Origin: Pontibacter arcticus
GTDB taxonomy: Bacteria > Bacteroidota > Bacteroidia > Cytophagales > Hymenobacteraceae
Direction: 5' to 3'
NCBI RefSeq assembly: GCF_003284895.1
Contig: NZ_QMDV01000003.1
Span: forward strand, 188,501-252,500
DNA length: 64,000 nt
Shown: piece after piece, positions 1 through 64,000 of the stretch
How positions within the stretch are numbered: position 1 is the stretch's first letter
Layout of the letters: every line of letters starts with the position of its first letter
The notes under the pieces: generated by a model
The model's input: only the letters and a program-made list of their open reading frames with translations
Database searches by the model: none
What the model was told of the DNA's origin: nothing
Program-made: the position numbers and the translations under genes

Positions 1-947
1 CCAAAGGCTACGGCGACTGCAAAGCCCTGACAAACTACATGCAGGCTATGTTGCAAACGGTAGGCATCCCTTCCTACCACGCGGTAATACGGGCCGGCGA
101 AAACGTACCGGATATTAAAACCGATTTCCCGAGCAGCCAGTTTAACCACGTTGTTTTGTGTGTGCCGATGCCGCAAGATACGGTATGGTTAGAGTGTACG
201 AGCCAGACAGTAGCAGCCGGTTATATGGGATCGTTTACGGGCGGCCGCCATGCACTACTGGTAACACCGGAGGGCGGCAAACTGGTAAAAACGCCTGCTT
301 ACAAAGCCATTGATAACACCCAGAAGCGAACCATACTTGTAAAGCTTGATGAGAAAGGAAACGCCAAGGCCAATATAACTACACTTTTTACCGGAACCCA
401 ACAGGAAGACCGCGATCAGGTCATGCAAAGTATGGCACCCGATGCGCAACGCAAATGGCTGTATCAGCAGATCGCAATTCCAGCCTTCGAAATTAACACT
501 CATGGCTTCAGCCAACAAAAAGCACGTTTGCCGCAACTCACCGAAAAACTTGAGCTTACGCTGCGCCAATGCGGCACCATGAGCGGCAAGAGAATGTTTG
601 TAGCGCCCAACCTGATGAACAAATGGACCTACACACCGGAAGACAAGGAAAACAGGCAAACCGATATTGTGCGCAGAATGGGCTTTCTGGATGTGGACTC
701 GGTTGAGTTTGAGCTACCGGAAGGCTATGCACTGGAGCATAAACCACAGGACATCAGCCTTACGTCTGAATTTGGCAAGTATACGGCAAGCACAAAAGTA
801 ACAGGCAACAAGATCAGCTATACACGCACGCTACAGATGGGAGATGGCCGGTTCAAGCCTACCGCGTATGCCAAGCTGATCGAGTTTTACAACAGCATTA
901 TCAAAGCCGACAGCCAGCAGATCGTTTTCGTGAAAAACACCCTTTAA
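1..947 (+). CDS. Transglutaminase-like protein, C-terminal part (5' truncated)
   Basis: The reading frame is open from base 3 and the start lies outside the window. The visible part opens with KGYGDCKAL, the catalytic-Cys motif of the transglutaminase-like superfamily. About 45 residues later F-N-H-V-V supplies the likely catalytic His, followed by W-L-E-C-T-S. The remaining 200 or so residues look like the beta-rich C-terminal domain found in Bacteroidota DUF3857/transglutaminase/DUF3858 proteins, which are usually exported. The substrate is unknown. A strong hairpin terminator follows at 1028-1079. The family assignment is fairly secure; the missing N-terminus prevents checking the signal peptide and the DUF3857 domain. 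Confidence 0.75.
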   Translation, partial: KGYGDCKALTNYMQAMLQTVGIPSYHAVIRAGENVPDIKTDFPSSQFNHVVLCVPMPQDTVWLECTSQTVAAGYMGSFTGGRHALLVTPEGGKLVKTPAYKAIDNTQKRTILVKLDEKGNAKANITTLFTGTQQEDRDQVMQSMAPDAQRKWLYQQIAIPAFEINTHGFSQQKARLPQLTEKLELTLRQCGTMSGKRMFVAPNLMNKWTYTPEDKENRQTDIVRRMGFLDVDSVEFELPEGYALEHKPQDISLTSEFGKYTASTKVTGNKISYTRTLQMGDGRFKPTAYAKLIEFYNSIIKADSQQIVFVKNTL

Positions 948-1027
948 CCAGGTTGATCACAAATCTATAAAGAACATAAATAAGAAGTATACTGCGTTAT
1001 AAGTTGACGTTAGTCTTCGTAAACCAT

Positions 1028-1079
1028 AAAAAAAGCATCAGGTATCGTATAAATTTATTCGTTACCTGATGCTTTTTTT
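1028..1079 (+). terminator. Rho-independent terminator
   Basis: Two 17-base arms (1028-1044 and 1063-1079) pair perfectly around an 18-base loop. The stem core is AGCATCAGGTA, bounded by an A-tract on one side and a T-tract on the other. It ends transcription of the transglutaminase-like gene before the next gene at 1104. Confidence 0.85.
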
Positions 1080-1103
1080 ATGAATTTTTGCCTTTTTTAA
1101 GTC

Positions 1104-1613
1104 ATGAAAACTGTTGTCGCTACTACCAAAATTACTACGCTGCTGCCGGAGCATTACGGGCAGGTGAAAGCAGTCTATGAACTGGGCATGGCTACGAACC
1201 TGGCCACACTGGAAACCCATGCACCCGATTGGGAAACCTGGGATGCCAAGTTTTTGCCTTCGTGCCGATTAGTTGCTCTGCAGGAGGATGTGGTAGTAGG
1301 ATGGGCTGCACTTACGGCCGTATCAGGCAGGTGCGTGTACCGGGGCGTGGCCGAAGATACCGTTTACATTCATCCAAAGTATAGCGGGCAGGGCATCGGG
1401 CATAAACTTTTAAACGAGCTGGTAGCCTGTTCCGAAGAAGAAGGATTCTGGACATTGCAGGCAGGCATTTTTAAAGAGAACGAAGCAAGTATAAAGTTGC
1501 ACGAAAAATGCGGTTTCCGGATAGTGGGTTTGCGCGAACGCATCGGACAATTACATGGCGCGTGGCGCGATATTTACCTGATGGAAAGGCGCAGCTTAAA
1601 AACCGGACTTTAA
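1104..1613 (+). CDS. GNAT N-acetyltransferase, phosphinothricin-acetyltransferase-like
   Basis: A 169-residue single-domain GNAT enzyme. The acetyl-CoA binding motif A is seen as VYIHPKYSGQGIG around residues 88-100, and the C-terminal half carries N-E-A-S-I-K-L-H-E and G-F-R-I-V-G-L-R-E-R-I-G, followed by W-R-D. That combination is characteristic of the Pat/Bar/MnaT subfamily, which N-acetylates phosphinothricin, methionine sulfone or similar amino acids. In chromosomes like this the physiological substrate is usually unknown. It sits alone between a terminator and a convergent operon. The ATG at 1104 is the only good start. The family is secure; the substrate is inferred. Confidence 0.85.
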   Translation: MKTVVATTKITTLLPEHYGQVKAVYELGMATNLATLETHAPDWETWDAKFLPSCRLVALQEDVVVGWAALTAVSGRCVYRGVAEDTVYIHPKYSGQGIGHKLLNELVACSEEEGFWTLQAGIFKENEASIKLHEKCGFRIVGLRERIGQLHGAWRDIYLMERRSLKTGL

Positions 1614-1676
1614 GAGTATGAAAATCTGTTTTTTATACTTTGAACTACTCTACCCAATAGCTGCTAATTATACTTT

Positions 1677-3752
1677 CTAAAACCTGTACCGCACCTGCGC
1701 TTTCACATCCGATCTGCGTGCACCCTCAATCGTATCTAATCCGGAGCCAACGCTATCTTGGTTTCGGTAATGCATGAAGCCATACTTTACCCAGAAATCT
1801 AGATCACGTAGCGGGCTCAGCTGCACCAGCAAGTATAAACGTGTGCCTTTCCCGCTGAAAGCTGGAATGGAGAAAGCTCCCAGTACATCGCGCTCAAAAG
1901 TATACTGGCGTGTGTCGTAATTATCCGTATCGAAAATGGCGTAGCGTGTACTCAACCGGATGCGGTTAAAATCAAAGTTAATGTCCTGCGCAATTAAATA
2001 GCCGGTGGTCGGAGCGGCGTTGTGTTCAAAGCTACTGAACTGTACCCTCGATTTAAGCTGCACTGTTTTAGTTGGCGCGAACTCATAGTATAAAAGATAA
2101 TTCCGGCGGAGTGCTTGCGCCACGTAATCGATTTTAGTGTCGTTATTGGGTGCGTTCAGGCCTTTGCTTTCTGTCCGGAACTGGGCGTACAGCGAGGTCT
2201 GGCGGTTTGGTTTAAAGTATAAACGCAGCAGATATTCGTTTCCGTAAGAGGGTGCATCCACGCGGTAGCGCAGCCACGGAAATCGGAACCTGTCGTAGTA
2301 AGCAGTAAGCTCCCATTTGGCAAAAGGCTTTAGTTTGATGCCGGTATAAAATCCCTGTTCGTTAATATTGCGACTGCCTTCTCCGAAAGCGCCGCCGTAG
2401 GAAGTATGAAAACTGCGGCCATAATACCGGTACAGCATTGCAAGTTCTACTTTATTGGATAAGTTGGCTATAAGGCCATTGACGCTCCCCACGCCGCCGC
2501 TTTTGCTCACAGCCGTCTCCCCGAACACGAATACATTCTGCCAGGTATAGCTGTAATTGGTGCCGAGGTTGAAGTTACTTTTGCCACCAAACTCGAATTG
2601 CTGGTAAGGCGCACCTGCTTTTCTGATAGCCGAACTGTAATGCGTGCCTAACCCCGTAATACCAATCTGCAAACTGTTGTTGCGGCTCAGGTAACTGATG
2701 TTGGTACCGAAAAGCTGCTCCCGTGCGCCGCCTTTATTTGCCAGCTCATTTGCCGTCCGGTGGAAGCCTGTGGTCTGGATGCCAGTAAAGAAGTCTTCCG
2801 AATTGGTTGCTAAACTATCCTGCTGTACCTGCACATTGGCATCCACGCGCTTGTTCGAGTAAAAGCCCGTTACATTGATTCTGCCCAACGTATATGTTGC
2901 CGCCGCTCCCCTGAAATACGCATACTCCAGCACAGAGCTGTAAGGCCGGATGCCCAGATTTGCCCTGCTGATGGTTGTGATGGTTTCGCTGCCCTTGCCC
3001 ACACTATAACCCGATGATAGCAGCAAACCCTGCCCGATCTGGAGTTGGTAATCACCTATAGCAATAGTTTTAAACTTGCCTTTGTTGTAGAGCTGCAGGT
3101 GGGCCGTATAAAAATCGAAGCCATACTGGCGTGTGCCGGGGCGCCAGGTAAATTGCTCTCCGGCGTCTTTTTCGGCGGTAATGCCCAGGCTATAATCACG
3201 GGTGTGGCTGTTGCGGTAGCGCAGTAAGACTTTGTCAGGTGAGCCCAGGTAACGACTTCCTTCCCCGGAAGTATAGCCGCGCCTTTGCTGCAAAGTACGT
3301 TCGTACCGAAGTATAAGTGCGTTGTTATCTTCGCCTATCACCCGTTGCCAGAGCGGCCGTTGATCCGAGTTCAGGCCGGCATCGTCTACCCGCACAAAAG
3401 CAACAAGCTTGTAAATGGTCACCAGATCGAAATCGGGGATGGCTTGCAGTTCGTAGATACTGATGAGTTTGCCGTTTTCCTGTTTATACTTTTGGAGCGA
3501 AGCAATTTGCGGCCGCGAAAGTATGAACAGCGACGCCAGCTCTTCGGAAGTGGCCGTGTTCAGGTCTAAAGGGCGTTGGTAGTATTGAAAAAGTGTTTCG
3601 TAAAAATCTTCGTAGGGGATGTTCTCGTCTTCCTGCTGCCCGAAAAGCTCCTGCACAAACAAATCAAAATCGATGTTGCGGCGCGGAAAATCCTGTGCGT
3701 TCGCGCTTTGTAAAGTATAGATCAGGATAAAAGAGAGCGCCCATACTTTCAT
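1677..3752 (-). CDS. Helix-hairpin-helix / outer-membrane barrel protein
   Basis: A 691-residue protein with a signal peptide (hydrophobic stretch ending in S-A-N-A-Q-D). Residues of roughly 55-120 form a helix-hairpin-helix segment beginning LDLNTATSEELA, of the ComEA type. The remaining 550 residues are alternating beta-strand sequence rich in Tyr, Arg and Gly, ending in the aromatic C-terminal Phe typical of outer-membrane barrels. The same architecture recurs in Bacteroidota and has no firm function that I know of. The start codon overlaps the stop of the upstream PorV-like gene by four bases (ATGA), so the two are translationally coupled. The HhH may bind DNA or may simply be a structural fold; this is not resolved by sequence. 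Confidence 0.75.
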   Translation of the reverse strand: MKVWALSFILIYTLQSANAQDFPRRNIDFDLFVQELFGQQEDENIPYEDFYETLFQYYQRPLDLNTATSEELASLFILSRPQIASLQKYKQENGKLISIYELQAIPDFDLVTIYKLVAFVRVDDAGLNSDQRPLWQRVIGEDNNALILRYERTLQQRRGYTSGEGSRYLGSPDKVLLRYRNSHTRDYSLGITAEKDAGEQFTWRPGTRQYGFDFYTAHLQLYNKGKFKTIAIGDYQLQIGQGLLLSSGYSVGKGSETITTISRANLGIRPYSSVLEYAYFRGAAATYTLGRINVTGFYSNKRVDANVQVQQDSLATNSEDFFTGIQTTGFHRTANELANKGGAREQLFGTNISYLSRNNSLQIGITGLGTHYSSAIRKAGAPYQQFEFGGKSNFNLGTNYSYTWQNVFVFGETAVSKSGGVGSVNGLIANLSNKVELAMLYRYYGRSFHTSYGGAFGEGSRNINEQGFYTGIKLKPFAKWELTAYYDRFRFPWLRYRVDAPSYGNEYLLRLYFKPNRQTSLYAQFRTESKGLNAPNNDTKIDYVAQALRRNYLLYYEFAPTKTVQLKSRVQFSSFEHNAAPTTGYLIAQDINFDFNRIRLSTRYAIFDTDNYDTRQYTFERDVLGAFSIPAFSGKGTRLYLLVQLSPLRDLDFWVKYGFMHYRNQDSVGSGLDTIEGARRSDVKAQVRYRF

Positions 3753-4582
3753 AAAGCCCCTTTCCGTAAGGTATAACCAACAGATAAATGGTGGCTGAAA
3801 CCAAGCAACGTAGTAGAACCAAATGCATAATCAACAGCAAACTGCCTGGCCAGAAAGCCTGCCCCAAACGTAGCTTTATTGGTAAGCGAACTAAACCCGG
3901 TGCGAAGTATAAGTTTCTGAAGTATGGCCTGGTACTCGATGCCTGCTTTAAAATCTGCGTCAAAGTCTATATGCTTTTCGGTTTCGATGGCCAGCAGCAG
4001 TTTTTTGTAAGGCCTATAGGCGATGCCGGCTTTCATGATGGTGGGCAGGCGTTCGTCTTCAAACTGAGCAAGTTTGGCCTGGTTCAGGTTATAAGCGTAG
4101 GCACCAAAGTATAAATCAGGTATGATTTCAGCCTGTCCGCCCACCGAAAAAGTTAGCGCTTTCCGGCTGCCGTAACCTTCTACGGCTACTTGCCATACTT
4201 CCGCTTTCGCGCCTAAACTGAACTGCCCCAGCTTATGTGCCCACCCAAAACCGATGTGTTGCTGGTTGTACAGTTCATCTCCGAACCGGCTCAGGCTTAT
4301 GCCATAGCTGCCATACTTTGTAGTTGGATATACTCCTTGAAAAGCGACTGTCGTAAATGCCCGCACCCCAAAACGGCTTTCGGCATACGCGCCCAGTTGT
4401 GGTTGTTCAAGGCTCGCAATTCCAGCAATGTTATTATTTAGAGCCCAGAGATCGGGAAGTGTAACGGAAGCGTTGCCCAGTGCGGCGGCGCGTGCTCCGG
4501 TTGGCGCAACAACCTGCGCCTGTAGCAGGCAAGGGAGCAGGAAAAGTATAAAGTATAAGCTGCGTCGTAGAAGTTTAACCAT
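3749..4582 (-). CDS. PorV/PorQ-like outer-membrane protein
   Basis: A 277-residue protein with an N-terminal signal peptide (L-Y-F-I-L-F-L-L-P-C-L-L-Q-A-Q). The mature start G-A-R-A-A-A-L-G-N-A-S-V is the hallmark of the PorV/PorQ and related FadL-like barrels of Bacteroidota, in which a loop packs into a 14-stranded barrel. PorV proteins act as shuttles in type IX secretion, but many paralogs are unassigned and this one lacks nearby type IX genes. It is the first gene of a two-gene operon with the HhH-barrel gene, overlapping it by four bases, so the pair probably acts together in the outer membrane. Confidence 0.7.
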   Translation of the reverse strand: MVKLLRRSLYFILFLLPCLLQAQVVAPTGARAAALGNASVTLPDLWALNNNIAGIASLEQPQLGAYAESRFGVRAFTTVAFQGVYPTTKYGSYGISLSRFGDELYNQQHIGFGWAHKLGQFSLGAKAEVWQVAVEGYGSRKALTFSVGGQAEIIPDLYFGAYAYNLNQAKLAQFEDERLPTIMKAGIAYRPYKKLLLAIETEKHIDFDADFKAGIEYQAILQKLILRTGFSSLTNKATFGAGFLARQFAVDYAFGSTTLLGFSHHLSVGYTLRKGAL

Positions 4583-9966: not shown

Positions 9967-10674
9967 ATGAATCAGACAATACTTGAAGTACGAAATATAG
10001 AAAAAGCCTACAACGGCAAAACAGTAGTATCTATTCCGGCGCTCAGCGTGGCTACCCACGAAACCGTTGGCGTAGTCGGGAATAACGGTGCCGGCAAAAC
10101 CACTCTTTTCCGGATGATCCTGGATCTGATCCGGCCTTCAGACGGCGAGGTTTTTCTGAAAGGACTTAACGTAATGCAATCCGGAGCATGGAAATCGTAT
10201 ACCGGCTCACATTTAGACGAAGGCTTTCTGATTGATTACCTGACGCCGGAAGAGTATTTCAGATTCATAGGCGACCTGCATGGCCTTTCGGATGGCGATA
10301 TTACAGAGCGCTTGGCCCCATTCCTGGATTTTTTTAACGGTGAAATTTTAGCACAGCGCAAGTATATCCGCGATTTTTCGAAGGGCAACCAGAAAAAGAT
10401 CGGCGTAGCGGCAGCGGCATTATTTAACCCCGAACTGCTTATTCTGGATGAGCCTTTTGCTAACCTCGACCCTAGTTCCCAGATCCGGTTAAAGAACCTG
10501 CTCAAAACACTCCGCGACCAGCACGGCATGGCCATACTCATATCAAGCCACGACCTGAGCCACGTAACAGAAGTATGCGAGCGCATCATTATCCTGGAAA
10601 AAGGGCAGCTGATACAGGATATGCAAACAACCGAAAATACCTTGCAGGAACTGGAGAATTACTTTACAGTATAG
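9967..10674 (+). CDS. ABC transporter ATP-binding protein (partner of DUF5687 permease)
   Basis: A 235-residue ABC ATPase. Walker A is GNNGAGKTT (about residues 39-47), the signature loop is the divergent F-S-K-G-N-Q-K-K, Walker B is LLILDEPFANLDP, and the switch His is in S-S-H-D-L-S-H. It powers the upstream permease. The start codon is embedded in the iterated word, reading AAAAGTATGAAT, with the ATG inside AAGTATG. The role as an exporter rather than importer is inferred from the absence of a binding protein. Confidence 0.88.
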   Translation: MNQTILEVRNIEKAYNGKTVVSIPALSVATHETVGVVGNNGAGKTTLFRMILDLIRPSDGEVFLKGLNVMQSGAWKSYTGSHLDEGFLIDYLTPEEYFRFIGDLHGLSDGDITERLAPFLDFFNGEILAQRKYIRDFSKGNQKKIGVAAAALFNPELLILDEPFANLDPSSQIRLKNLLKTLRDQHGMAILISSHDLSHVTEVCERIIILEKGQLIQDMQTTENTLQELENYFTV

Positions 10675-10685
10675 TTGATAATCAC

Positions 10686-10697
10686 AAAGTATACTTT
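10686..10697. repeat. AAGTATA palindrome
   Basis: AAAGTATACTTT is a perfect 12-base palindrome made by fusing AAGTATA to its own complement, placed 11 bases after the ABC ATPase stop codon. Confidence 0.8.
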
Positions 10698-10716
10698 TCT
10701 TATAGTTAGTGGTTGC

Positions 10717-10760
10717 TACCACAAAGGCCGGACTGTTATACAGTACCGGCCTTTGTGGTA
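10717..10760 (+). terminator. Hairpin terminator after the ABC exporter operon
   Basis: Perfect 15-base arms, TACCACAAAGGCCGG at 10717-10731 and its complement at 10746-10760, enclose a 14-base loop. No long T-tract follows, so termination may be partly factor-assisted. Confidence 0.65.
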
Positions 10761-10939
10761 CGTAAGGATTTAGTTCATTCAAAGAATTTTCAGGATAATT
10801 TCAGCTTATTCCGGTCAGAAAACGTATGCAAAATGTTCATACCTCAAAACTACCTAAAAGCCTGAAGCAGTGTTGGCAGTGCTTGTAAAGTTTGTGGGGC
10901 GTTAGATAATTCAGCATTAACAATCTATATTAAATTGCT

Positions 10940-12310
10940 ATGAGAAAAATTACAGCGTTCGCCTCTGTTTTGTCGCTGCTTACCCTCTTTTCGTGTAACG
11001 AAGGAGACGATGTTATCAATCCAGGAAATCCTTCCGAGCAAAAAGCAGATACTTTGCAAGGTGTAATCACATCAGACCTTGCTCTTAAACAAGACCAAAC
11101 TTATTATTTAAAAGGACAGGTGTATGTGAAGAATAATGCCGTGCTTACCATACCGGCAGGCGTTACCGTAACAGCGGGTTCTTCTAAAGATAAACAGCTA
11201 GGTGCTCTTGTTATAACACAGGGTGCTAAATTATTTGTAAATGGTACTTCCGAGAGGCCGGTCGTGTTTACATCGGCTGCCGCAACGAAAGCGCCCGGCG
11301 ATTGGGCAGGTATTTTTGTATTGGGCAAAGCACCAACCAACCTTGGGCAACAGGCAAATTTGCCAGGCCTTGCCGTTTCAGCGGATACAAAGTTTGGGGG
11401 CGATGTGGCAACTGATAATTCGGGCTCGATCAGTTACCTGCGCGTAGCGTATACCGGTGGGCTTAACCCGGCCAACGAAGACGAGTGGGCAATAGACCTG
11501 GCCAGTGGTTTAACGTTGGCAGGTGTAGGTACCGGCACTAAAGTAAGCCATGTGATGGTGACAAACTCGAAAGATGATGGTTTTCAGTTTCTGGGAGGTA
11601 CCGTGAATGCTAAAAACCTGATTGCTTATAACAACGGTGACGATGATTTTGACTTTGACCGCGGCTATACCGGCAAACTGCAGTTCCTGATCTCGTACCG
11701 TACTAAAACAACCACGCATGCACTCAGAGCCAACGCCATGGAAAGCCTGAATGATTTTGATGCGCTTGGTCCGCAGCCTTTTACGCGTCCTGTTATTTCG
11801 AACATGACCATTATTGGCCCACAAGGTGCAGAAACCACAAAAACCAACCTGAACCAAGGTGTTTACATTCGTAAAGCAACGCGTTTTGCGGTACGTAACT
11901 CCATTATTGCAGAGTACCCGCAGGGTGGCCTGATGGTTTGTATGAAAACAAGACCTGTTTTACTGAAAAATGAAGGATCCGAGTTTAAGTACAACCTGGT
12001 GCACAGCGATAACGCGGCCAGAGCCTTTACCTGGGATCTGAACACGGAAGTAGTAGCTGACCCTGAGCTGGAAAAATTCGGCCTGAATGAAACCAATCAG
12101 AACAAAGTAATTTCTTCTTTCGCTGATTTTAAACTGAAAAGCCCGTATGCGCAAACCCCTGATTTTACTGTTTCCAGCGAATCGGTTGCAGCTACAGGCG
12201 CTAACTTCAGTGGGAATGATTATACCTCGTTTTTTTCGCCGGTGGCCTTTAGAGGAGCCGTTGGTGGCGAAAACTGGGCTGCAGCCAGCAACTGGGCAGT
12301 CTGGAAATAA
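10940..12310 (+). CDS. Secreted lipoprotein with beta-helix-like repeats
   Basis: A 456-residue protein with a lipoprotein signal peptide whose lipobox ends L-F-S-C at Cys19. The next residues N-E-G-D-D are acidic, resembling the Bacteroidota lipoprotein export signal, so surface exposure is plausible. The sequence has many short strands (Y-Y-L-K-G-Q-V-Y-V, V-L-T-I-P-A-G-V-T-V, G-A-L-V-I-T-Q-G-A-K-L-F-V) followed by repeated G-D-D-D-F-D-F-D-type turns, which suggests a right-handed parallel beta-helix. Homologs in this phylum are usually called hypothetical. It is a single-gene unit closed by a bidirectional terminator. No enzymatic residues were recognised. Confidence 0.65.
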   Translation: MRKITAFASVLSLLTLFSCNEGDDVINPGNPSEQKADTLQGVITSDLALKQDQTYYLKGQVYVKNNAVLTIPAGVTVTAGSSKDKQLGALVITQGAKLFVNGTSERPVVFTSAAATKAPGDWAGIFVLGKAPTNLGQQANLPGLAVSADTKFGGDVATDNSGSISYLRVAYTGGLNPANEDEWAIDLASGLTLAGVGTGTKVSHVMVTNSKDDGFQFLGGTVNAKNLIAYNNGDDDFDFDRGYTGKLQFLISYRTKTTTHALRANAMESLNDFDALGPQPFTRPVISNMTIIGPQGAETTKTNLNQGVYIRKATRFAVRNSIIAEYPQGGLMVCMKTRPVLLKNEGSEFKYNLVHSDNAARAFTWDLNTEVVADPELEKFGLNETNQNKVISSFADFKLKSPYAQTPDFTVSSESVAATGANFSGNDYTSFFSPVAFRGAVGGENWAAASNWAVWK

Positions 12311-14796: not shown

Positions 14797-14813
14797 AAGT
14801 ATACTTTATACTT
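14797..14813. repeat. Palindromic and tandem AAGTATA copies
   Basis: AAGTATACTT (14797-14806) is a perfect palindrome, followed in register by another TATACTT (14807-14813). It lies in the divergent region between the sdpR-like and isoaspartyl-peptidase genes. Confidence 0.75.
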
Positions 14814-38809: not shown

Positions 38810-38810
38810 T

Positions 38811-45980: not shown

Positions 45981-46016
45981 AATAGGCTTCTTGCTACAAT
46001 TTAAGGTACATTACCA

Positions 46017-46048: not shown

Positions 46049-46090
46049 TATTTATACCTACCTTTGCCAGACAAAAAAAGAAATCAGCAC

Positions 46091-46633
46091 ATGGAGCCGC
46101 GTACCATCCGCCTGCACGATTGCGAGTTCAGCACGTACATCTTTGAAGAAGAAATCATTGCCCGTATTACCATGCTGGCCGAAAAAATCGACACAGATTA
46201 TCAGCACAAAAAACCTCTTTTCCTGGCCGTACTGAACGGTTCTTTCATGTTCGCTGCCGACCTGCTGAAGCGGGTTTCTGTGCCTTGCGAAATCGCTTTT
46301 ATCCGCCTTTCGTCTTACCAGGACATGAACAGCACCGGAAAAGTAAAAGAAGTGTTGGGTTTAACCGAGAACATAGAAGATCGCCATATCGTAATTCTGG
46401 AAGATATCGTAGATACCGGGCACACCGTGCACGGCCTTTTACAGAAACTAGCAGAGCAAAAACCGGCTTCTGTAGAGGTTGCAACCTTGCTGATGAAGCC
46501 CGAATGCCTGCAACACGAGCTTGCCGTGAAGTATGTGGCCCGAACTATTCCCAATGATTTTGTTGTTGGCTATGGCCTGGACTATAACGGACTTGGCCGC
46601 AACCTGCGCGATATCTATAAGATCGTATCGTAA
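46091..46633 (+). CDS. hpt: Hypoxanthine phosphoribosyltransferase
   Basis: About 180 residues from the ATG at 46091 (M-E-P-R-T-I-R-L); the frame extends to a TTG at 46064 that is unlikely to be used. The PRPP-binding signature I-L-E-D-I-V-D-T-G-H-T is intact, preceded by the F-L-A-V-L-N-G-S-F-M-F motif of the active-site loop. The C-terminal V-G-Y-G-L-D-Y-N-G-L-G-R is typical of HPRT. It salvages hypoxanthine and guanine to IMP and GMP. adk follows about 125 bases downstream. Confidence 0.93.
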   Translation: MEPRTIRLHDCEFSTYIFEEEIIARITMLAEKIDTDYQHKKPLFLAVLNGSFMFAADLLKRVSVPCEIAFIRLSSYQDMNSTGKVKEVLGLTENIEDRHIVILEDIVDTGHTVHGLLQKLAEQKPASVEVATLLMKPECLQHELAVKYVARTIPNDFVVGYGLDYNGLGRNLRDIYKIVS

Positions 46634-46758
46634 CTCTACAAGTATAGCAGCGTTCATACTCCTTTATATTCCTGAAGGCAAAGGACTGCCTGCAACAGAA
46701 AATTAAAAAAACCATCGAATTTATACTTACATTTGCCTCTTATTTTTAAACAGAAGCT

Positions 46759-47355
46759 ATGCTCAACATCGTTTTGTTTGGCCCTCCGGGCGCCGGAAAA
46801 GGCACCCAGAGTCAGAAACTGATAGATAAATATAACCTGATTCACCTTTCTACCGGTGATTTGCTCCGTTCAGAGATCGCGGCAGGCACTAGTTTGGGCC
46901 TGGAAGCAAAACAGCTGATGGACAAAGGCCTGTTGGTGCCGGATGAAGTAGTGATTGGCATGATCGATAACAAACTGAAAGAGCACCGCGAGGCTGCCGG
47001 GTTTATTTTTGATGGCTTTCCGCGCACAGTGCCACAGGCACAAGGCCTGGACAAACTGCTGCTCGAAAACAATACGGAAATATCGTGCATGATCGCTCTA
47101 AAGGTAGATGATGAGGAGCTAACCAAGCGCCTGTTGATCCGTGGCCAGACTTCAGGCCGTCCGGATGATCAGAACGAAGAATTAATAAGAAGACGTGTGC
47201 AGGAGTATAACTCCAAAACCACGCCTGTGGCAGACTATTATGCCGGACAAGGTAAATTTTGTTCGGTGCAGGGTATCGGCGATATCGAAGAAATATTCGC
47301 TAGCCTTTGCCGTGAAATAGATGCCCTGAAAGAAAGAGACGAAAAGAAAAATTAG
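46759..47355 (+). CDS. adk: Adenylate kinase
   Basis: A 198-residue enzyme. The P-loop is G-P-P-G-A-G-K-G-T, the AMP-binding segment is L-S-T-G-D-L-L-R, and D-G-F-P-R-T follows. The LID is of the short form ([10 protein letters not shown]), without the zinc-binding Cys cluster. It equilibrates ATP, ADP and AMP. It lies between hpt and obg, with obg starting 20 bases after its stop, so they are probably co-transcribed. Confidence 0.95.
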
Positions 47356-47375
47356 CATACTTACGCTTACACAAT

Positions 47376-48368
47376 TTGGCATCAAGCAACTTTATAGATT
47401 ACGTTAAAATCTGCTCACGCTCCGGACACGGAGGCGCAGGTTCCGCACACTTGCACCGCGATAAACTAACGGCCAAAGGTGGGCCGGATGGTGGCGACGG
47501 CGGCCGTGGCGGGCACGTAATACTACGTGGCAACTCACAACTCTGGACCCTGCTTCACCTGCAGTTCCGCAAGCATATTATGGCTGAAAACGGGTTAGGT
47601 GGCGGCCCAAGTCATTCGTTTGGTGCACAAGGCAAAGATATTATACTGGAAGTACCACTTGGCACAGTAGCCCGTAACGCTGAAACACGCGATATAAAGT
47701 GCGAAATTACAGAGCACGGCCAGGAAATCATACTTACTCCCGGTGGTAGAGGTGGTTTGGGTAACGCGCACTTTAAATCGCCAACCAACCAGACACCACG
47801 CCACGCACAACCCGGCGAGGAAGGTATAGAAGAGTGGGTTATCCTGGAACTGAAACTGCTGGCCGATGTAGGTCTGGTAGGTTTCCCGAATGCAGGTAAA
47901 TCCACTTTATTATCGGTAGTATCTGCGGCAAAACCAAAAATTGCCAACTATGCCTTTACCACCCTCGAGCCTAACCTGGGTGTAGTAGCTTACCGCGACT
48001 TCAGATCTTTTGTGATGGCTGATATTCCGGGGATTATAGAAGGCGCTTCGGAAGGTAAAGGTTTAGGAATACGGTTTTTACGCCACATCGAGCGGAACTC
48101 CATGCTGCTGTTTATGGTTTCATGTGATAGTCCGGACATCGCCAAAGAGTATGATATCTTGCTAAACGAGCTTCAGAAGTATAACCCGGAGCTGTTAGAT
48201 AAAAAACGCATACTTGCCATTACCAAAAGCGATATGCTGGATGATGAACTGGAAGAGGAGATGCGACAGACCTTGCCGGACGGCTTGCCAACTGTTTTCA
48301 TTTCCAGTATTTCGCAGAAGAACATCGCCAAACTGAAAGACATGATCTGGGAAGAGCTTAACAGCTAA
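47376..48368 (+). CDS. obgE: Obg-type ribosome-assembly GTPase
   Basis: A 330-residue protein. The N-terminal Obg domain is glycine-rich ([11 protein letters not shown]) and the G domain begins with G-F-P-N-A-G-K-S-T, followed by D-I-P-G-I-I-E-G-A and T-K-S-D. It binds the large ribosomal subunit and supports ribosome maturation and stress responses. The start codon is TTG at 47376; the protein then begins [11 protein letters not shown], the normal Obg start, and no ATG is available nearby. It is downstream of adk with a 20-base gap and followed by a terminator. Confidence 0.95.
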
Positions 48369-48394
48369 ATCCTGATTTTATACTTTACAAACGG

Positions 48395-48425
48395 ATCGGT
48401 AGAAGCTGCAAAGCTATCTACCGAT
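48395..48425 (+). terminator. Terminator of the adk-obg unit
   Basis: ATCGGTAGA (48395-48403) pairs with TCTACCGAT (48417-48425), extended internally by AGCT/AGCT, and is followed by a run of T residues. Confidence 0.9.
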
Positions 48426-48537
48426 TTTTTTATAGTGCCGAAAGCCTGCAATAAATGCCAGATTGACATAACAGGCTCTTTGGCAGATTAATTGACAAGA
48501 GACAGTATACACATCAACCTATTTTTTTTAAGGCATT

Positions 48538-49101
48538 ATGTCAGAAAAAGAGATGAAGAACGATCAGGAAAACGAAGAATTGCAGGATAATACGACAGAT
48601 ACGGAAGTAAACGAGCAGGAGCAGCAGGAAGAAGTAAAAGCAGCAGAAAATACTGATACTGCTGTGGCTGCAGAGCTGGCCGAGATGAAAGATAAATACC
48701 TGCGCTTAATGGCTGAGTTTGAGAACTTCAGACGCAGGACTGCCAAAGAGCGCATCGACCTTTCCAAAACAGCCACGCAAGATGTGATGACGGAATTGTT
48801 GCCTGTTCTGGATGATATGGAACGCGCAAGCCACTCTTTCGAAACTACAAAAGATACGGATGCGATGTTGCAGGGCCTGGAGCTTGTTTTCCATAAGCTG
48901 AAGCACGTAACGCAGCAAAAAGGCTTGCAGGCTATGCAGATACAGGCTGGGCACGACTTTGATACCGAAATGCACGAAGCAATTACACAAATACCAGCGC
49001 CAAGCGACGACCTGAAGGGGAAAATCGTGGATGTGGTAGAGAAAGGATATACTTTGAACGATAAAGTTATTCGTTTCGCAAAAGTTATAATAGGAGCTTA
49101 A
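48538..49101 (+). CDS. grpE: Nucleotide exchange factor GrpE
   Basis: A 187-residue protein. The N-terminal third is acidic and rich in Glu and Gln, with a long coiled coil. The conserved block R-L-M-A-E-F-E-N-F-R-R-R-T is followed by the C-terminal beta domain ending G-Y-T-L-N-D-K-V-I-R-F-A-K-V. It promotes ADP release from DnaK. dnaJ starts three bases after its stop, forming a co-chaperone operon. DnaK is not in the window. Confidence 0.95.
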   Translation: MSEKEMKNDQENEELQDNTTDTEVNEQEQQEEVKAAENTDTAVAAELAEMKDKYLRLMAEFENFRRRTAKERIDLSKTATQDVMTELLPVLDDMERASHSFETTKDTDAMLQGLELVFHKLKHVTQQKGLQAMQIQAGHDFDTEMHEAITQIPAPSDDLKGKIVDVVEKGYTLNDKVIRFAKVIIGA

Positions 49102-49104
49102 AAG

Positions 49105-50250
49105 ATGGCTAAGAGAGATTATTACGAGATTTTAGATATAAGCAAGGGGGCCAGCCAGGAAGAGATAAAGAAGGCTTACCGTAAGATCGCGATCAAATAC
49201 CATCCCGATAAAAACCCGGACGACCCAACTGCCGAAGATAAGTTTAAAGAAGCAGCTGAAGCGTACGAAATACTAAGCGACCAGCAGAAACGCCAGCGCT
49301 ACGACCAGTTCGGCCACCAGGGCATGAACGGTGGATTTGGCGGCGGAGGCGGCGGCATGAACATGGAAGATATTTTCTCCCAGTTCGGCGACGTTTTCGG
49401 TGGAGGTGGTTTTGAAGGCTTCTTTGGTGGACGCCAGGGAGGTGGAGGCCGCCGAGCGCGCAAAGGAAGCAACCTGCGCATTAAACTTAAACTCAGCCTG
49501 GAAGAAGTAGCCAATGGCGTTGAGAAAAAAATAAAAGTAAAACGTTACGTAGCGTGTAGTACCTGCGGCGGCAACGGCGCTAAAAACGGTACGGATATGC
49601 AGACGTGCGGCTCTTGCCAAGGATCAGGTCAGGTTCGCAAAGTAGTAAATACGATGCTGGGCCAGATGGTATCATCGGCAACGTGCCCAACCTGTAACGG
49701 CGAAGGCCGCATTGTAACCAAAAGTTGCGATGCCTGCCATGGCAGCGGCCGTGAATTGCAGGAAGAGGTGATCACGATTAACGTACCGGGCGGCGTAATG
49801 GACGGTATGCAACTGTCTATGTCGGGCAAAGGCAACGTGCCGGAACGTGGCGGCGTACCAGGCGACCTTCTGATTCAGATTGAGGAAGAAGAACACCCAA
49901 CGCTGAAGCGCGAAGGCAACAACATTATCTTCGATCAGTACATCAGCTTTGTAGATGCAGCCATTGGTGCCGATATCGAGGTGCCTACTATCACAGGCAA
50001 GGTTAAAATCAACATAAAACCAGGTACACAGAGTGGCGAAATTTTCAGGTTGCGCGGCAAAGGTATTAAAGATATCAACGGTTATGGCAAAGGCGACCAG
50101 CTGATCCATATCAATGTATGGACGCCGAAATCGCTGAACAGTGAGGAACGTGCCGTGCTGGAAAGCCTCCGCGATTCGGATAACTTTATGCCGCACCCGG
50201 GTAAAAATGACAAAGGCTTCTTCGAGAAAGTAAAAGATTATTTTCAGTAA
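49105..50250 (+). CDS. dnaJ: Chaperone DnaJ
   Basis: A 381-residue class I Hsp40. The J domain has Y-H-P-D-K-N-P (with the essential HPD), followed by a Gly/Phe-rich stretch of about 45 residues. Four zinc-binding repeats are all intact: [24 protein letters not shown] and C-D-A-C-H-G-S-G. The C-terminal domain binds substrate. It delivers unfolded clients to DnaK and stimulates its ATPase. It is downstream of grpE. A hairpin follows at 50269. Confidence 0.96.
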
Positions 50251-50268
50251 GAAAAAAGTATAAATAAG

Positions 50269-50310
50269 AACAGAAGCGGGTATTTTCGAAAGAGGATGCC
50301 CGCTTCTGTT
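50269..50310 (+). terminator. Hairpin after dnaJ
   Basis: AACAGAAGCGGG (50269-50280) pairs with CCCGCTTCTGTT (50299-50310) around an 18-base loop. Confidence 0.7.
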
Positions 50311-50480
50311 ATATACACTAAAGTATAAAGTACCAGCGTCGGTTTATATAGCGAAAGTATAGCAAGCTTCGTCGGGAGAATTGTTATTTCTGTCTGATAA
50401 AAAATAGCTAAAGTATAATATACATTGTTTTGTATGGGCGAAGCATGTATTTTTAAGAAAGTTTAAACTGAAAAATAGCT

Positions 50481-51392: not shown

Positions 51393-52752
51393 GATTTGGC
51401 TGATAATACAACGCGAGTATATTACACGTGTCCGGAAGAAGAGCTTTTTGATCATGACCTTCCTGACGCCGTTGCTGCTGGCTGCTTTCATGATAATTCC
51501 GGCATGGCTGGCTACTTTCTCGGATAGCGACGATACCATTATGGTGCTGGATGAAAGCGGTTTGTTTGCAGATAAACTGATCAGCAAAGATGAGTTGAAA
51601 TTTGTAACGCTGGGCGGCTCGCTGGAGCAGGCAAAACTGGCTTACAAAGAAACCGACAACACTGCTTTACTGCACATCCCGAAGCTCAGCATCGAAAACC
51701 CGGAAGGCATTAAGGTATACGCCAAGAAAAATACCAGCATCCAGACCAAATTAAAACTGGAAAACATGCTGGAAAAAGAAGTGGAGAACCAGCGTTTTGT
51801 AGCATCTGGCATCGACCGCGAACTACTCTCCAAAATGAAAGCGAATATCAGCATCACGGCTGTTAACCTAAGCGACGAAGGCGAAAAAGACAACAATGCC
51901 TTCGTTACTTCCGGGGCTGGTATTGTAGCGGCGGTTATTATTTACTTCTTCATTTTTATGTATGGCGTGCAGATCATGCGCGGCGTGATCGAAGAAAAAA
52001 CCAACCGTATTGTAGAGATCATGATCTCGTCTGTAAAGCCTTTCCAGTTGATGATGGGCAAGATTATAGGCATTGCCGGTGTAGGTTTAACGCAGTTTTT
52101 GCTGTGGCTTATACTTTCTTCTATCGTGGTAACAGGCGTTCAGGCCGCTTTTGGCATTAAACCGGCACCAACGCCAATCGAGCAAATGGCTGCAGGACGC
52201 GAGGCTGCCACCGGCGAAACTCAGGAAGTACAAACAACCGAAGGCGAAGTAGCGGCAGCAGATGCCACCACCGATAACGAGGCAAATGCCGTGATGGGCT
52301 CTGCTTTTAAAGCTATCGGTAACTTAAATATCCCGTTGATCATCGGCTGTTTCCTGTTTTACTTTCTGGGAGGCTACCTGTTATACGGCTCCCTTTTCGG
52401 GGCAATCGGCGCTGCCGTAGATAACGAAACCGATACGCAGCAGTTCATGTTCCCGATCACGATTCCGCTTATCATCTCTTTTATCATGTCGTACACGGTG
52501 GTTATCCAAAACCCGGATGGGCCTGTGGCTTTCTGGATGTCGATGATTCCGTTTACCTCGCCTATTATTATGATGGTGCGTGTTCCGTTTGGCGTACCTG
52601 CCTGGGAGCTTGCCCTATCTATGGGCTTGCTTATACTTGGCTTCATTATCAGCACCTGGATTGCCGGCCGCATTTACCGCGTAGGTATTCTGATGTATGG
52701 CAAAAAAGTTAACTACAAAGAGTTATCAAAGTGGCTGTTTTACAGAGTATAA
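51385..52752 (+). CDS. ABC transporter permease, NatB-like
   Basis: A 455-residue ABC-2-type permease. The first membrane helix is followed by a long extracytoplasmic domain (about residues 45-165), then five or six further helices. The loop after residue 260 is acidic and low-complexity (E-T-Q-E-V-Q-T-T-E-G-E). This layout matches NatB and related exporters. It overlaps the ATPase gene by eight bases, a clear sign of coupling. The exported substrate is unknown. Confidence 0.85.
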   Translation: MDKIWLIIQREYITRVRKKSFLIMTFLTPLLLAAFMIIPAWLATFSDSDDTIMVLDESGLFADKLISKDELKFVTLGGSLEQAKLAYKETDNTALLHIPKLSIENPEGIKVYAKKNTSIQTKLKLENMLEKEVENQRFVASGIDRELLSKMKANISITAVNLSDEGEKDNNAFVTSGAGIVAAVIIYFFIFMYGVQIMRGVIEEKTNRIVEIMISSVKPFQLMMGKIIGIAGVGLTQFLLWLILSSIVVTGVQAAFGIKPAPTPIEQMAAGREAATGETQEVQTTEGEVAAADATTDNEANAVMGSAFKAIGNLNIPLIIGCFLFYFLGGYLLYGSLFGAIGAAVDNETDTQQFMFPITIPLIISFIMSYTVVIQNPDGPVAFWMSMIPFTSPIIMMVRVPFGVPAWELALSMGLLILGFIISTWIAGRIYRVGILMYGKKVNYKELSKWLFYRV

Positions 52753-52773
52753 AATAAAACTATTTGTACGTTT

Positions 52774-52807
52774 AAAAAGTAGCTGATCTGAAGGGTCGCT
52801 ACTTTTT
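52774..52807 (+). terminator. Terminator of the NatAB-like operon
   Basis: AAAAAGTAGC (52774-52783) pairs with GCTACTTTTT (52798-52807), followed by T residues. Confidence 0.8.
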
Positions 52808-52843
52808 TGCTTTAATATGCTTACACTTTCTTGCCCTGAGATT

Positions 52844-53719
52844 ATGAAACAAATCATACTTCCGCTTCTTCTTATACTTGTAACGTTTACGGCCATGGCA
52901 CAGGACAAACCAGCTTACATGCTTTTTTCTAAAGATGGTAAAAGTATAAAGTATGGCAAAATACTAAAAGAACTGCAGGAAGCGGATGTTATCCTTTTTG
53001 GCGAGCAGCACAACGACCCGATCGCGCACTGGCTGCAACTGGAGCTTACAAAAGACCTGCACAAAGTACACCAACAGCAATTTATACTTGGCGCCGAAAT
53101 GCTGGAAGCCGACATACAACTGGTTTTAAACGAGTACCTGGAAGGGAAAATACCGGAAACAAACTTTGCTCAGGAAGCCAGGTTGTGGCAAAACTACAAC
53201 ACCGATTACAAGCCTGTTGTAAAGTATGCCAAAGAGAATCGTGTGCCGGTTATTGCTACTAATGTGCCGCGCCGCTATGCAGCAGCCGTATCGGGTGGCG
53301 GGTTAGCTGTCCTTGAAAGTATGACACCGGAGGCAAAGCAGTTTATCGCGCCTTTGCCTGTAACCGTTGATATGGAGTTGCCGGGTTATAAAAATATGCT
53401 TTCGATGTTTGGAGCGAGTACCCACGGCAATACCAAAAGTATAAACATTGTGCAGGCCCAGGCTCTGAAAGATGCGACAATGGCGCATTTTATACTTCAG
53501 GAGGTAGGCAAAGGCCGTAAAATGCTGCACCTGAACGGCGCTTACCATTCTGATAACTACGAAGGCATTGGCTGGTACCTCAAACAAAAGCAGCCTAAAC
53601 TCAAAGTCATTACGATCACTACCGTACTGCAACCAGATCTGGTAAAGCTGGCCGATGAACATAAAACAAAAGCGGATTTCATACTTGCCGTACCCGAAAG
53701 TATGACCAAGACTTATTAA
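52844..53719 (+). CDS. ChaN-family haem-binding/iron-regulated protein
   Basis: About 291 residues from the ATG at 52844. The signal peptide ends T-A-M-A-Q-D; unlike Campylobacter ChaN it has no lipobox Cys, so it is probably soluble in the periplasm. Conserved ChaN features are I-L-F-G-E-Q-H-N-D-P, and L-N-G-A-Y-H-S-D-N-Y-E-G-I-G-W near the C-terminus, where His residues may bind haem. The gene is very dense in AAGTATA/AAGTATG words, which supply several of its Ser-Ile-Lys and Ile-Leu codon pairs. Haem binding is inferred from the family. Confidence 0.8.
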   Translation: MKQIILPLLLILVTFTAMAQDKPAYMLFSKDGKSIKYGKILKELQEADVILFGEQHNDPIAHWLQLELTKDLHKVHQQQFILGAEMLEADIQLVLNEYLEGKIPETNFAQEARLWQNYNTDYKPVVKYAKENRVPVIATNVPRRYAAAVSGGGLAVLESMTPEAKQFIAPLPVTVDMELPGYKNMLSMFGASTHGNTKSINIVQAQALKDATMAHFILQEVGKGRKMLHLNGAYHSDNYEGIGWYLKQKQPKLKVITITTVLQPDLVKLADEHKTKADFILAVPESMTKTY

Positions 53720-53752
53720 CCGTAAAGCAAAGTATAAACTCCCTTAAAAACA

Positions 53753-62105: not shown

Positions 62106-62496
62106 CCTGGGCAGGTACTTTATTAATTGGAACAAGTCAAAATTAAGCCTATTTTTGCATAAGGGCGGTCAGGAAAAACGCTGTAAAAAACGTAACTGAA
62201 CTGCCCTATGCTGACCAGCAGTAAAAGGTGGCTAAACCTGGAATACTGCTTTCCGGAACAGATACGTTGCCTTTTCGGGCCAACGCCATTTCGCAGAACT
62301 TGGGTACATGCAGTGCTGCCTGGTAATGGCCTGAGCAGAAAAACGAACCCGATGTTCAGGCTTGTTTTGATAACTGGTCTCTAAATTAGTAATAAATTAA
62401 TTACTGAATAAGTTCTGCTTTCAACAATTTAGCTGAAACAAAAACGCGGCCATACTTGCAGAACCGGTTCCCTTAGCTTTAATAATAGTTTTAACG
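62106..62496. other. Divergent intergenic region, no gene seen
   Basis: A moderately AT-rich region between the GH3-beta-lactamase gene and mutL. It probably carries both promoters. I found no convincing palindrome, tRNA or short coding frame. Confidence 0.5.
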
Positions 62497-64000
62497 ATGC
62501 CTGACATCATACATTTACTACCCGATTTTCTTGCCAACCAGATTGCCGCCGGCGAGGTGGTGCAGCGCCCTGCCTCGGTAGTAAAAGAATTGCTCGAAAA
62601 CGCCATCGATGCTAATGCAACCGCTGTGCAACTGATTGTGAAAGAAGCGGGCAAGCAACTGGTACAGGTGGTGGATAACGGCGCCGGCATGTCTGAAACG
62701 GATGCCCGTATGTGTTTCGAGCGGCACGCTACTTCCAAAATAAGCACCACCGAAGATCTTTTCCGCATCCGCACCATGGGTTTCAGGGGCGAGGCCATGG
62801 CCTCTATCGCCGCTGTAGCGCAGGTAGAAATGAAAACCCGGCTCCATACTTCGGATACAGGTGTACGCCTGATGATTGAAGGCTCTGCCGTTACGTTACA
62901 CGAACCGGCGGCTGTGCCCGCGGGTACGTCTATCGCCGTTAAAAATCTTTTCTTTAATGTACCGGCCCGCCGCAACTTCCTGAAAACAAACGCTGTGGAG
63001 ATGCGTCATATCCTGGACGAGTTTCAGCGGGTGGCTTTGTCTTATCCTGAAATTGCTTTCTCGCTGCACCACAACGATACCGAAGTATTTAATTTACCGG
63101 CCACCAAACTGAGCCAGCGCATCATCGGCATCTTCGGAAGCAATTACAAAGAGCAAATGGCTTACTGCGAGGAAGATACCAACTTCCTGAATGTGCGGGG
63201 CTATATCGGGAAACCGGAGTTTGCACGCAAAACACGCGGCGAACAATTCTTTTTCGTGAACAACCGTTTTGTGAAAAGCGGCTACCTGCACCATGCGGTT
63301 ACCACGGCGTTCGAAGGTTTATTGCCAAAAGACAGCCATCCGTTTTATGTGCTCTTTATTGATATTGAACCCGAGAAGATCGATATAAACGTACACCCGA
63401 CCAAAACCGAAATTAAGTTTGAGGACGAGAAAACGGTATACGCCATTGTACATGCAGCAGTCCGGAAAGCGTTGGGCGCGCACAATATTGCACCGTCACT
63501 GGATTTTGACGGCGACGTGAATTTTGCCCCTTTGCAGCCGATCCGGATACAGGGCGGAAGTATAAATGAGTTCGACACCGAAAGCCATCACAATAGTTTT
63601 CCGGGGTTAACGATGCCGGCCACAGCCAAACGGGCTACTTCCAAGGGATGGGACCAACTCTATGAGCCTGTACACAAACCGCAGCACCACGAAGAAGAAA
63701 GTTATACTTCGGCCAGCTCCGGAATGGGCTTGCTGGACGATACCTTTGCCACTGAAACCACGACGGCTACGAACAAAGCTGTTCAGATTCATCAGAAATA
63801 CTTGCTGGTACAGGTAAAATCCGGGATGATGATCATTGACCAGCAGGCAGCGCAGGAACGCATCCTGTATGAAAAGTATAAAGCCCTGCTGCAAAAGAAA
63901 GCTGTGATCTCGCAGGCCTTGCTTTTCCCGCAGACCATTGACCTTTCGCCTTCGGATGCAGTGCTGATAAAAGAACTGGCCGGTGAGTTTAAGGAAATGG
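62497..64000 (+). CDS. mutL: DNA mismatch repair protein MutL, 5' part
   Basis: The frame opens at ATG 62497 and is still open at the right edge, so about 501 codons are visible. It begins M-P-D-I-I-H-L-L-P, with the GHKL ATPase motifs V-V-K-E-L-L-E-N-A-I-D-A, D-N-G-A-G-M, and T-M-G-F-R-G-E-A. After residue 330 the linker begins, and the final visible sequence is the start of the C-terminal dimerisation domain. MutL couples mismatch recognition by MutS to strand incision. Whether the C-terminal endonuclease motif is present cannot be seen. Confidence 0.95.
   Translation, partial: MPDIIHLLPDFLANQIAAGEVVQRPASVVKELLENAIDANATAVQLIVKEAGKQLVQVVDNGAGMSETDARMCFERHATSKISTTEDLFRIRTMGFRGEAMASIAAVAQVEMKTRLHTSDTGVRLMIEGSAVTLHEPAAVPAGTSIAVKNLFFNVPARRNFLKTNAVEMRHILDEFQRVALSYPEIAFSLHHNDTEVFNLPATKLSQRIIGIFGSNYKEQMAYCEEDTNFLNVRGYIGKPEFARKTRGEQFFFVNNRFVKSGYLHHAVTTAFEGLLPKDSHPFYVLFIDIEPEKIDINVHPTKTEIKFEDEKTVYAIVHAAVRKALGAHNIAPSLDFDGDVNFAPLQPIRIQGGSINEFDTESHHNSFPGLTMPATAKRATSKGWDQLYEPVHKPQHHEEESYTSASSGMGLLDDTFATETTTATNKAVQIHQKYLLVQVKSGMMIIDQQAAQERILYEKYKALLQKKAVISQALLFPQTIDLSPSDAVLIKELAGEFKEM

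Follow-up and report, generated by a model that had tools for sequence, protein, structure and literature searches.

A highly iterated genomic word in Pontibacter, its lineage-specific spellings and its resemblance to DNA-uptake sequences

Copies of the word in the window and the genome

The DNA analysed here is a stretch of 64,000 bases from the genome of Pontibacter arcticus (contig NZ_QMDV01000003.1, positions 188,501 to 252,500), referred to below as the window, and the element under study is the short word AAGTATA. Together with AAGTATG (66 copies), AAGTATA is spread throughout the window (1–64000) and over both strands, with 89 copies on the plus strand and 71 on the minus strand. These 160 copies compare with a mean of 8.9 and a maximum of 18 in 100 dinucleotide shuffles. 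A first-pass annotation of the same sequence had described a highly iterated word from two stretches, and the excess extends beyond these over the entire window. For the first 4600 bases it had claimed at least 17 copies of AAGTATA or its complement TATACTT, where composition should give fewer than one; exactly 17 copies start there (777–4557, including a tandem pair at 4544–4557), and the shuffles predict about 0.6. In the second stretch (52632–53736), around 53 kb, six AAGTATA (52632–53497) and six AAGTATG (52855–53704) are present as described, with an additional seventh AAGTATA at 53730, and 11 of these 13 copies lie within a ChaN-like gene (52817–53719).

The densest cluster, with seven copies per 135 bases (31695–31829), lies between open frames at 30601–31500 (minus strand) and 31835–33754 (plus strand). 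Four copies occupy the gap that follows an H+-pyrophosphatase gene (45896–45980), and four more, every one on the plus strand, the gap that follows dnaJ (50256–50417). The plus-strand block containing these genes (43628–50250) runs from the H+-pyrophosphatase gene through adk, a 330-residue frame and a 187-residue frame, which from gene order are presumably obg and grpE, to dnaJ. This block is present in 49 of 49 congeners and served the dialect, tree and site-conservation analyses described below, with the 330-residue frame as the search anchor. Copies can also overlap one another: AAGTATACTT at 10687–10696 consists of two overlapping copies in opposite orientation, and at 14797–14813 three copies overlap or adjoin, as AAGTATACTT followed by a tandem copy.

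An extended form of the word, AAAGTATAAA, occurs 45 times in the window, where a first-order model predicts 0.3. Genome-wide counts, which the first-pass annotation had named as a check on its claim, lie far from expectation: the P. arcticus genome (G000) holds 2,020 copies of AAAGTATAAA and 12 of the word read backwards (168-fold), and 3,679 copies of the form AAGTATAAA, or one per 1.0 kb, vs 42 of its reversed control. In the window and 400 kb of the same genome, AAGTATAAA was observed 476 times where 13.0 copies were expected (37-fold). Window and genome counts alike confirm a highly iterated word, on a larger scale than had been stated. Listings of the open-licence literature gave no account of AAGTATA as a genomic word, of over-represented words or transformation in Pontibacter, or of DNA uptake sequences in Bacteroidetes.

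The shape and placement of the word were derived from the window and 400 kb of the same genome, a sample with 1,104 copies of AAGTATA. The profile over these copies reads [ACG]-AAGTAT-[A>G]-A-A. AAGTATA and AAGTATG stand at 9.6 and 4.7 times expectation, and words with a one-base change within AAGTAT at 0.7–2.3 times. The flanks are mildly A-rich, and the copies have no common sequence past about ten bases. The word is non-palindromic, and the base after AAGTATA is A in 65% of copies vs 17% for the C that would make a palindrome. The overlap typified by AAGTATACTT is the commonest pair spacing up to 45 bases (28 pairs).

Copies in both orientations, within and between genes, had been noted before and are found here in all six frames. 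Coding copies number 655 (328 and 327 by strand), where 20 shuffles of synonymous codons yielded 87 on average. With genes taken from a simple, purpose-made gene caller, density between genes is about four times that within them (428 copies in 67.2 kb vs 654 in 396.8 kb, with 22 spanning an edge), and convergent gene gaps are densest (118 copies in 9.2 kb). The spread along the chromosome is fairly even, with a variance-to-mean ratio of 20-kb counts of 1.5 in contig C1 of P. arcticus and 1.1 in the congener G366.

Spellings across the genus and the fate of individual sites

The genus set comprised 50 genomes, namely P. arcticus and 49 congeners, with 20 kb around the anchor gene examined in each congener. 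For one protein encoded in the window, the closest of the loci found belongs to P. cellulosilyticus (59% identity), in line with placement in Pontibacter, family Hymenobacteraceae. Whole-genome counts of AAGTATAAA in the 49 congeners range from 84 to 4,337, and those of the reversed controls from 24 to 115. Around the anchor gene, many genomes without an AAGTATA excess carry another word, AACTATA or AGGTATA. The spelling varies by lineage, in dialects that share the frame NNN-TATR, a pattern newly found here. A scan of all 64 prefixes of this frame assigned AAG to 20 genomes (P. arcticus included), AAC to four, AGG to 12 and both AAG and AAC to three bilingual genomes (G310, G320 and G347). 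One genome each was assigned ATA (G296), GGG (G382) and a weak AAG/AAC signal (G363), and eight were assigned no word. The z value of the assigned word is at least 9 in every one of the 41 clear cases. Among the word-less eight, z is at most 5.2 for any NNN-TATR word, while unrelated 7-mers reach z 6.5–9.5; this status refers to 20–40 kb per genome for unknown spellings and to whole-genome counts for AAG and AAC. The two single-genome dialects are drawn from 40 kb of G382 and, for ATATATR, from longer samples of G296 totalling 120 kb, in which the neighbouring registers CTATATR and TTATATR are also high and make the exact word less certain.

The AAC-dialect counterpart of AAGTATAAA is AACTATAG. 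Whole-genome counts of AACTATAR are 10,614 to 11,475 in the four AAC genomes, with the maximum in a 4.5-Mb congener, and 9,803, 6,494 and 4,582 in the bilingual genomes. Among the remaining genomes, G330 (AAG dialect) has 2,403 and the weak G363 has 1,276, and none of the others exceeds 920. G330 and G376, both of the AAG dialect, show a secondary AACTATAR excess (2,403 vs a control of 501, and 860 vs 432), as if partly bilingual. Loci of named species follow the same dialects, with AAG in P. vulgaris, P. cellulosilyticus and P. mangrovi, and AAC in P. populi and P. burrus.

In a tree built from five proteins and rooted at the midpoint, the AGG group has a bootstrap value of 100 and the AAC-plus-bilingual group one of 99. 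An AAG clade of 11 genomes has the word-less G385 as its sister (both nodes 100), and a further clade unites G361, G305, G382 and G296 (100). Deeper nodes tested were weak (33 to 77), and word losses are therefore left undated. The presence of AAG in separate lineages, together with residual AAGTATAAA in several other genomes, suggests that AAG is perhaps the ancestral spelling. The eight word-less genomes measure 5.2–6.5 Mb, vs a median of 4.6 Mb and a maximum of 5.6 Mb for the 41 word-bearing ones (Mann–Whitney p 1.6e-5, with G363 excluded, sizes rounded and relatives not independent). Word loss may accompany a greater share of foreign DNA.

Beyond the genus, searches with the single spelling AAAGTATAAA found no comparable enrichment, either in the 294 genomes that complete the class set of 295 or in the 45 of the 60 family genomes that belong to other genera. 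One genus among the latter reached up to 2.6 times its control. For counts above 50, AAAGTATAAA stands at most at about 2.6-fold its reversed control, vs 168-fold in P. arcticus. Among loci L001–L068 of at least 15 kb, the five top-scoring 7-mers are all from Pontibacter (z 12 to 27). Three more Pontibacter loci (z 10–11) stand no higher than the best 7-mers of other genera, which are mostly codon-like and reach z 11. Weak words may exist in other genera.

The fate of single sites was followed in aligned orthologous regions of selected genome pairs, with 7-mers of the same composition, unmatched for gene position, as controls. Since the genome pairs pooled here overlap and share tree branches, they are not independent; the counts are descriptive and given without p-values. 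Conservation at orthologous positions, proposed in the first-pass annotation as a check, was found among relatives of the same dialect; in other relatives, sites were replaced or lost. Within dialects, 479 of 1044 sites were retained vs 2209 of 8163 controls (46 vs 27%), with 214 of 378 vs 709 of 2103 (57 vs 34%) and 273 of 387 vs 1840 of 4931 (71 vs 37%) in two further sets. Between dialects, AAG sites were kept at 38 of 420 positions in AAC genomes vs 677 of 4030 controls (9 vs 17%), and at 34 of 402 positions in AGG genomes vs 519 of 4377 (8.5 vs 12%). The reverse comparisons also lie below controls (AAC to AAG, 8 vs 14%; AGG to AAG, 13 vs 16%).

Across dialects, the commonest one-base variant at a site is the other genome's own word (41/420, 31/402, 41/537 and 30/376). 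AAG sites thus read AACTATA at 41 of 420 positions in AAC genomes and AGGTATA at 13, and in AGG genomes they read AGGTATA at 31 of 402 positions and AACTATA at none. When 485 AAGTATA sites of bilingual genomes were followed into AAC genomes, 74 read AACTATA and 67 were kept (14%, vs 26% of controls). In the other direction, 580 AAC-genome sites were followed into bilingual genomes, where 227 were kept (39 vs 31%) and AAGTATA stood at 75. When the partner genome has no clear word, sites are retained no more often than controls: 11 of 81 vs 97 of 699 in the word-less G385, and 40 of 429 vs 613 of 4217 in G315, G377, G379, G361 and G382 pooled, the last having been placed in this set before its GGG word was noticed.

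In 10 of 11 comparisons, gaps affect fewer than 10% of aligned sites, and in the eleventh the gap-free fraction is 0.898 (AAC to AAG, 55 of 537 gapped). Within dialects the gap fraction resembles that of controls, at 59/1044 (0.057) vs 0.046, 15/378 (0.040) vs 0.035 and 7/387 (0.018) vs 0.019. Since gaps within dialects are like those of controls, and the local spelling often stands at the same positions across dialects, words are gained and lost mainly through substitutions at the site itself.

Plasmids and candidate machinery

Contig C6 of the P. arcticus genome carries genes for a relaxase, a ParA-like ATPase, TraG, TraM and a DUF4138 (TraN-like) protein, and for this gene content it is taken to be a conjugative plasmid. 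AAGTATAAA occurs there six times in 80 kb, as compared with 23 to 28 copies in each of four 20-kb samples of other contigs and 404 in 400 kb of C1; the length of a fifth small contig (5.9 kb) is insufficient for a judgement. The plasmids of P. kalidii, P. akesuensis and P. actiniarum hold three copies in 50 kb, six in 50 kb and six in 100 kb. Over these four samples, plasmid density is 0.06–0.12 per kb vs 1.0 per kb on the P. arcticus chromosome, or 8 to 17 times lower, and AAGTATR is enriched 1.5 to 2.8-fold vs 7.3-fold on that chromosome; C6 alone is thereby set against its own host, the three named plasmids being compared with P. arcticus whatever the dialects of their hosts.

Within the 139 kb of C6, its genes (L229–L232) recur at a distance of about 74.3 kb. 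The contig therefore probably represents almost two rounds of a circular plasmid of about 74 kb, and the 80 kb counted include a self-overlap of about 5.7 kb. The TraG of C6 (L231) was compared with those of the named plasmids (accessions include NZ_CP111080.1 and NZ_CP021236.1): identity is 97% with P. kalidii and with P. actiniarum, and 74% with P. akesuensis. Judging from such similarity, one conjugative plasmid backbone is shared within the genus.

ComEC was found in 50 of 50 genomes, with one stop within the match in G335 and G367. A PF12705 nuclease of about 970–1000 residues, which from family and length we take to be AddB, is likewise present in 50 of 50, the eight word-less genomes included. 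With the nuclease universal, loss of AddB does not explain loss of the word and is rejected as its cause.

Two surface proteins of Riemerella type were followed through the genus. The DUF5689 domain occurs in 22 of 50 genomes, comprising 6 of 20 AAG, 6 of 7 AAC or bilingual, 5 of 12 AGG, neither of the two single-genome dialects, the weak G363 and 4 of 8 word-less genomes. At 8 of the 13 loci whose flanks were examined (L187–L198 and L208), a SusD-like protein, judged by eye, lies directly upstream, and for this reason it is doubted that these are competence genes. In four AGG genomes (L195–L198) a DUF5689 lipoprotein-like gene is followed by a carboxypeptidase-regulatory-domain-like gene, again judged by eye; the neighbourhood in the AAC clade differs. 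The second protein, a receptor like RS04915, was sought with the Aquimarina gene L250, itself identified by its DUF5689 neighbour alone. It matched 15 of 50 genomes (E 1e-25) over about 390 of 973 residues at 29–33% identity, namely 9 of 20 AAG, 4 of 7 AAC or bilingual, none of 12 AGG, one of the two single-genome dialects (G382), not the weak G363, and one of 8 word-less genomes (G385). With 17 candidates scored per genome, no such receptor was found in G000, G359, G362 or G371.

A probable uptake or self-recognition word and its rivals

Uptake words are known from two proteobacterial families, with pilins as their reported or predicted readers (PMC3630211, PMC12616744). In Neisseriaceae, the DNA uptake sequence (DUS) occurs in dialects around a conserved CTG core and has the pilin ComP as a reported or predicted reader (PMC3630211), and ComN is a further pilin reader, reported or predicted (PMC12616744). 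The Pontibacter word resembles the DUS in having thousands of copies, in being non-palindromic, in lying both in and between genes, in having clade spellings around a core (TATR here) and in the existence of word-less genomes (PMC3630211). It differs in belonging to Bacteroidota, in its shorter core and the lack of a full pilus ATPase match, in being known here from sequence alone, and in reaching 11,475 copies of an 8-mer, vs 1,543–3,269 copies of the longer DUS (PMC3630211). The uptake signal sequence (USS) of Pasteurellaceae has Hin and Apl subclade spellings with the common motif ANNNGCGGT, which arose by mutation and not by insertion (PMC1626085), a pattern of the same kind as NNN-TATR. 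Unlike the USS, the word studied here has three well-sampled and two single-genome spellings within one genus, bilingual genomes, and word-less genomes that keep ComEC. Riemerella anatipestifer, also of the Bacteroidota, carries ComEC and is transformed without a detected pilus, so that such transformation exists in the phylum; it differs in that no uptake word is mentioned in the available part of that report (PMC8459023), and a homologue of its receptor type occurs in 15 of 50 Pontibacter genomes, out of step with the word.

The first-pass annotation had likened the word to HIP1, to DNA-uptake sequences and to Chi. The likeness to DNA-uptake sequences holds in most sequence features examined. 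HIP1 fits poorly, being a palindrome where this word is none. Chi, too, fits poorly given the much greater excess and the weak bias between strands, though a Chi-like role may still apply. It had also held that a protein reading the word would constitute a new system. The shifts between dialects argue strongly that a sequence-specific reader protein exists, and the best-supported reading is a variant of the uptake-word kind.

It is proposed that AAGTATR, as a form of NNN-TATR, is probably a pilus-independent uptake or self-recognition word of Pontibacter, acting genome-wide like a DNA-uptake sequence. A reader that biases import or recombination is suggested by the resemblance to the USS and DUS of a word that is non-palindromic, indifferent to transcription and frame, made mainly by substitution, distributed along the chromosome but thin on plasmids, and prone to switch spelling between clades around a constant core. 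Cells would favour the uptake, or the recombination, of DNA bearing their own word, and each import event would copy word-bearing alleles into the chromosome. Near-matches would shift to the word by point mutation and be retained where the protein sequence tolerates them. A change in reader specificity would be followed by the words, giving dialects and bilingual intermediates, and loss of the reader would leave the words to decay. Uptake would proceed through ComEC without a type IV pilus. The fuller version of this proposal, a pilus-independent system of sequence-specific import (or self-recognition) whose putative reader changed specificity at least twice, and perhaps four times, within the genus, is put forward tentatively. 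To our knowledge, every uptake-word system described so far is of the type seen in Neisseriaceae and Pasteurellaceae and involves type IV pili, and this one would be the first exception on both counts.

Several observations weigh against this proposal. Profile searches of the 50 genomes gave no full match to a pilus ATPase: PF00437 produced only weak partial hits, the best scoring 25.9 bits over about 60 of 370 positions, with 3 of 50 genomes barely above the cut-off of 24.9 (at most 31 candidates scored per genome; 14 of 14 control genomes positive). A pilus-type reader is therefore not supported, and a pilin is unlikely to read the word. ComEC is also present in all eight word-less genomes, and both Riemerella-type surface candidates are out of step with the word. 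Plasmids remain above chance, with 3, 6, 6 and 6 copies of AAGTATAAA vs 0.8, 0.4, 1.4 and 1.8 expected, the P. akesuensis plasmid standing highest (AAGTATR and AACTATR each at z 6.1; six copies of AAGTATAAA vs 0.4 expected). Gaps at sites are slightly commoner than in controls in most cross-dialect sets (37/420, 0.088, vs 0.066), one such set having fewer (6/376, 0.016, vs 0.043), and reach up to about twice controls against genomes without a clear word (6/81 vs 0.037 in G385; 36/429 vs 0.049 in the pooled set), so a minority of copies may have arisen by small indels. Convergent gene gaps are enriched, yet apart from the 28 overlapping palindromes no distance typical of a terminator stands out clearly among facing pairs. 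There is, finally, a weak preference for the G-rich strand, at 346/302 in G366 (53%, p 0.09), and at 517/426 (55%), or 245/159 (61%) for AAGTATAAA, in C1, with the replication strand judged from GC skew alone, in C1 from mean skew over 400 kb. This preference is somewhat above the single-base composition expectation and counts against a purely strand-blind process, which does not predict it.

An unlikely alternative, modelled on the highly iterated palindromes (HIPs), is that an orphan methyltransferase and methylation-linked mismatch repair create and keep the copies, with dialects tracking changes of the methyltransferase. HIP1 shows very high iteration and lineage-specific replacement by alternate words, each with a matching methyltransferase (PMC4390886), and the excess seen here is closer in size to that of HIP1 than to that of Chi. 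HIPs are, however, GC-rich palindromes tied to methyltransferases (PMC4390886), whereas the Pontibacter word is AT-rich and non-palindromic, and its thinness on a resident plasmid is no obvious prediction of such a mechanism.

A Chi-like role is no likelier: AddAB (RecBCD-like) would halt degradation and start recombination at the word, and dialects would track changes in AddB. The word is short, oriented and enriched on the chromosome as Chi is, the AddB-like nuclease is universal in the genus, and the weak G-rich-strand preference and the low plasmid density are in keeping with such a role. The nuclease is, however, equally present in the eight word-less genomes, there are several dialects in one genus, the orientation bias is 53–61% where a stronger one is usually quoted for Chi, and gene gaps are densest. 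The excess also differs, with 1008 copies of Chi observed in E. coli vs 151 expected (PMC1939737), less than 7-fold vs 37-fold for AAGTATAAA, the expectations coming from different models.

A binding site for an abundant nucleoid or segregation protein of drifting specificity is very unlikely; it would suit the fairly even chromosomal spread, the two orientations and the preference for gene gaps, but it does not readily explain position-by-position replacement of spellings or bilingual genomes, and resident plasmids should be bound too. It is scarcely credible that the word is an artefact of mutation or composition, or a small mobile element that has inserted repeatedly. Reversed 9-mer controls are low in every genus genome (24 to 115), and shuffles and synonymous-codon shuffles fall short. 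A mobile mini-repeat, in whose favour stand gap rates of up to twice those of controls, on small numbers, where the other genome has no clear word, is mostly rejected on the aligned-site gap rates within dialects and the lack of common sequence beyond about ten bases.

A dialect-bearing word in bacteria without a full match to that pilus ATPase would mean one of two things: import without a pilus can also be sequence-specific, or an identical trace is left by some other process that marks genomes. Since named species have different dialects, direct tests between species are possible, and the reader may be identified by correlating dialects with candidate proteins in the 50 genomes. In the bilingual genomes, specificity seems to be caught in mid-change.

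Two minor features of the window may be added. TCCGGA is likewise high, at 72 copies vs 15.7 expected under the first-order model. GC content dips to 0.375 at 36001–40000, around a polysialyltransferase-like gene (36343–37587); the word is present in this low-GC island, which is therefore perhaps not newly arrived.

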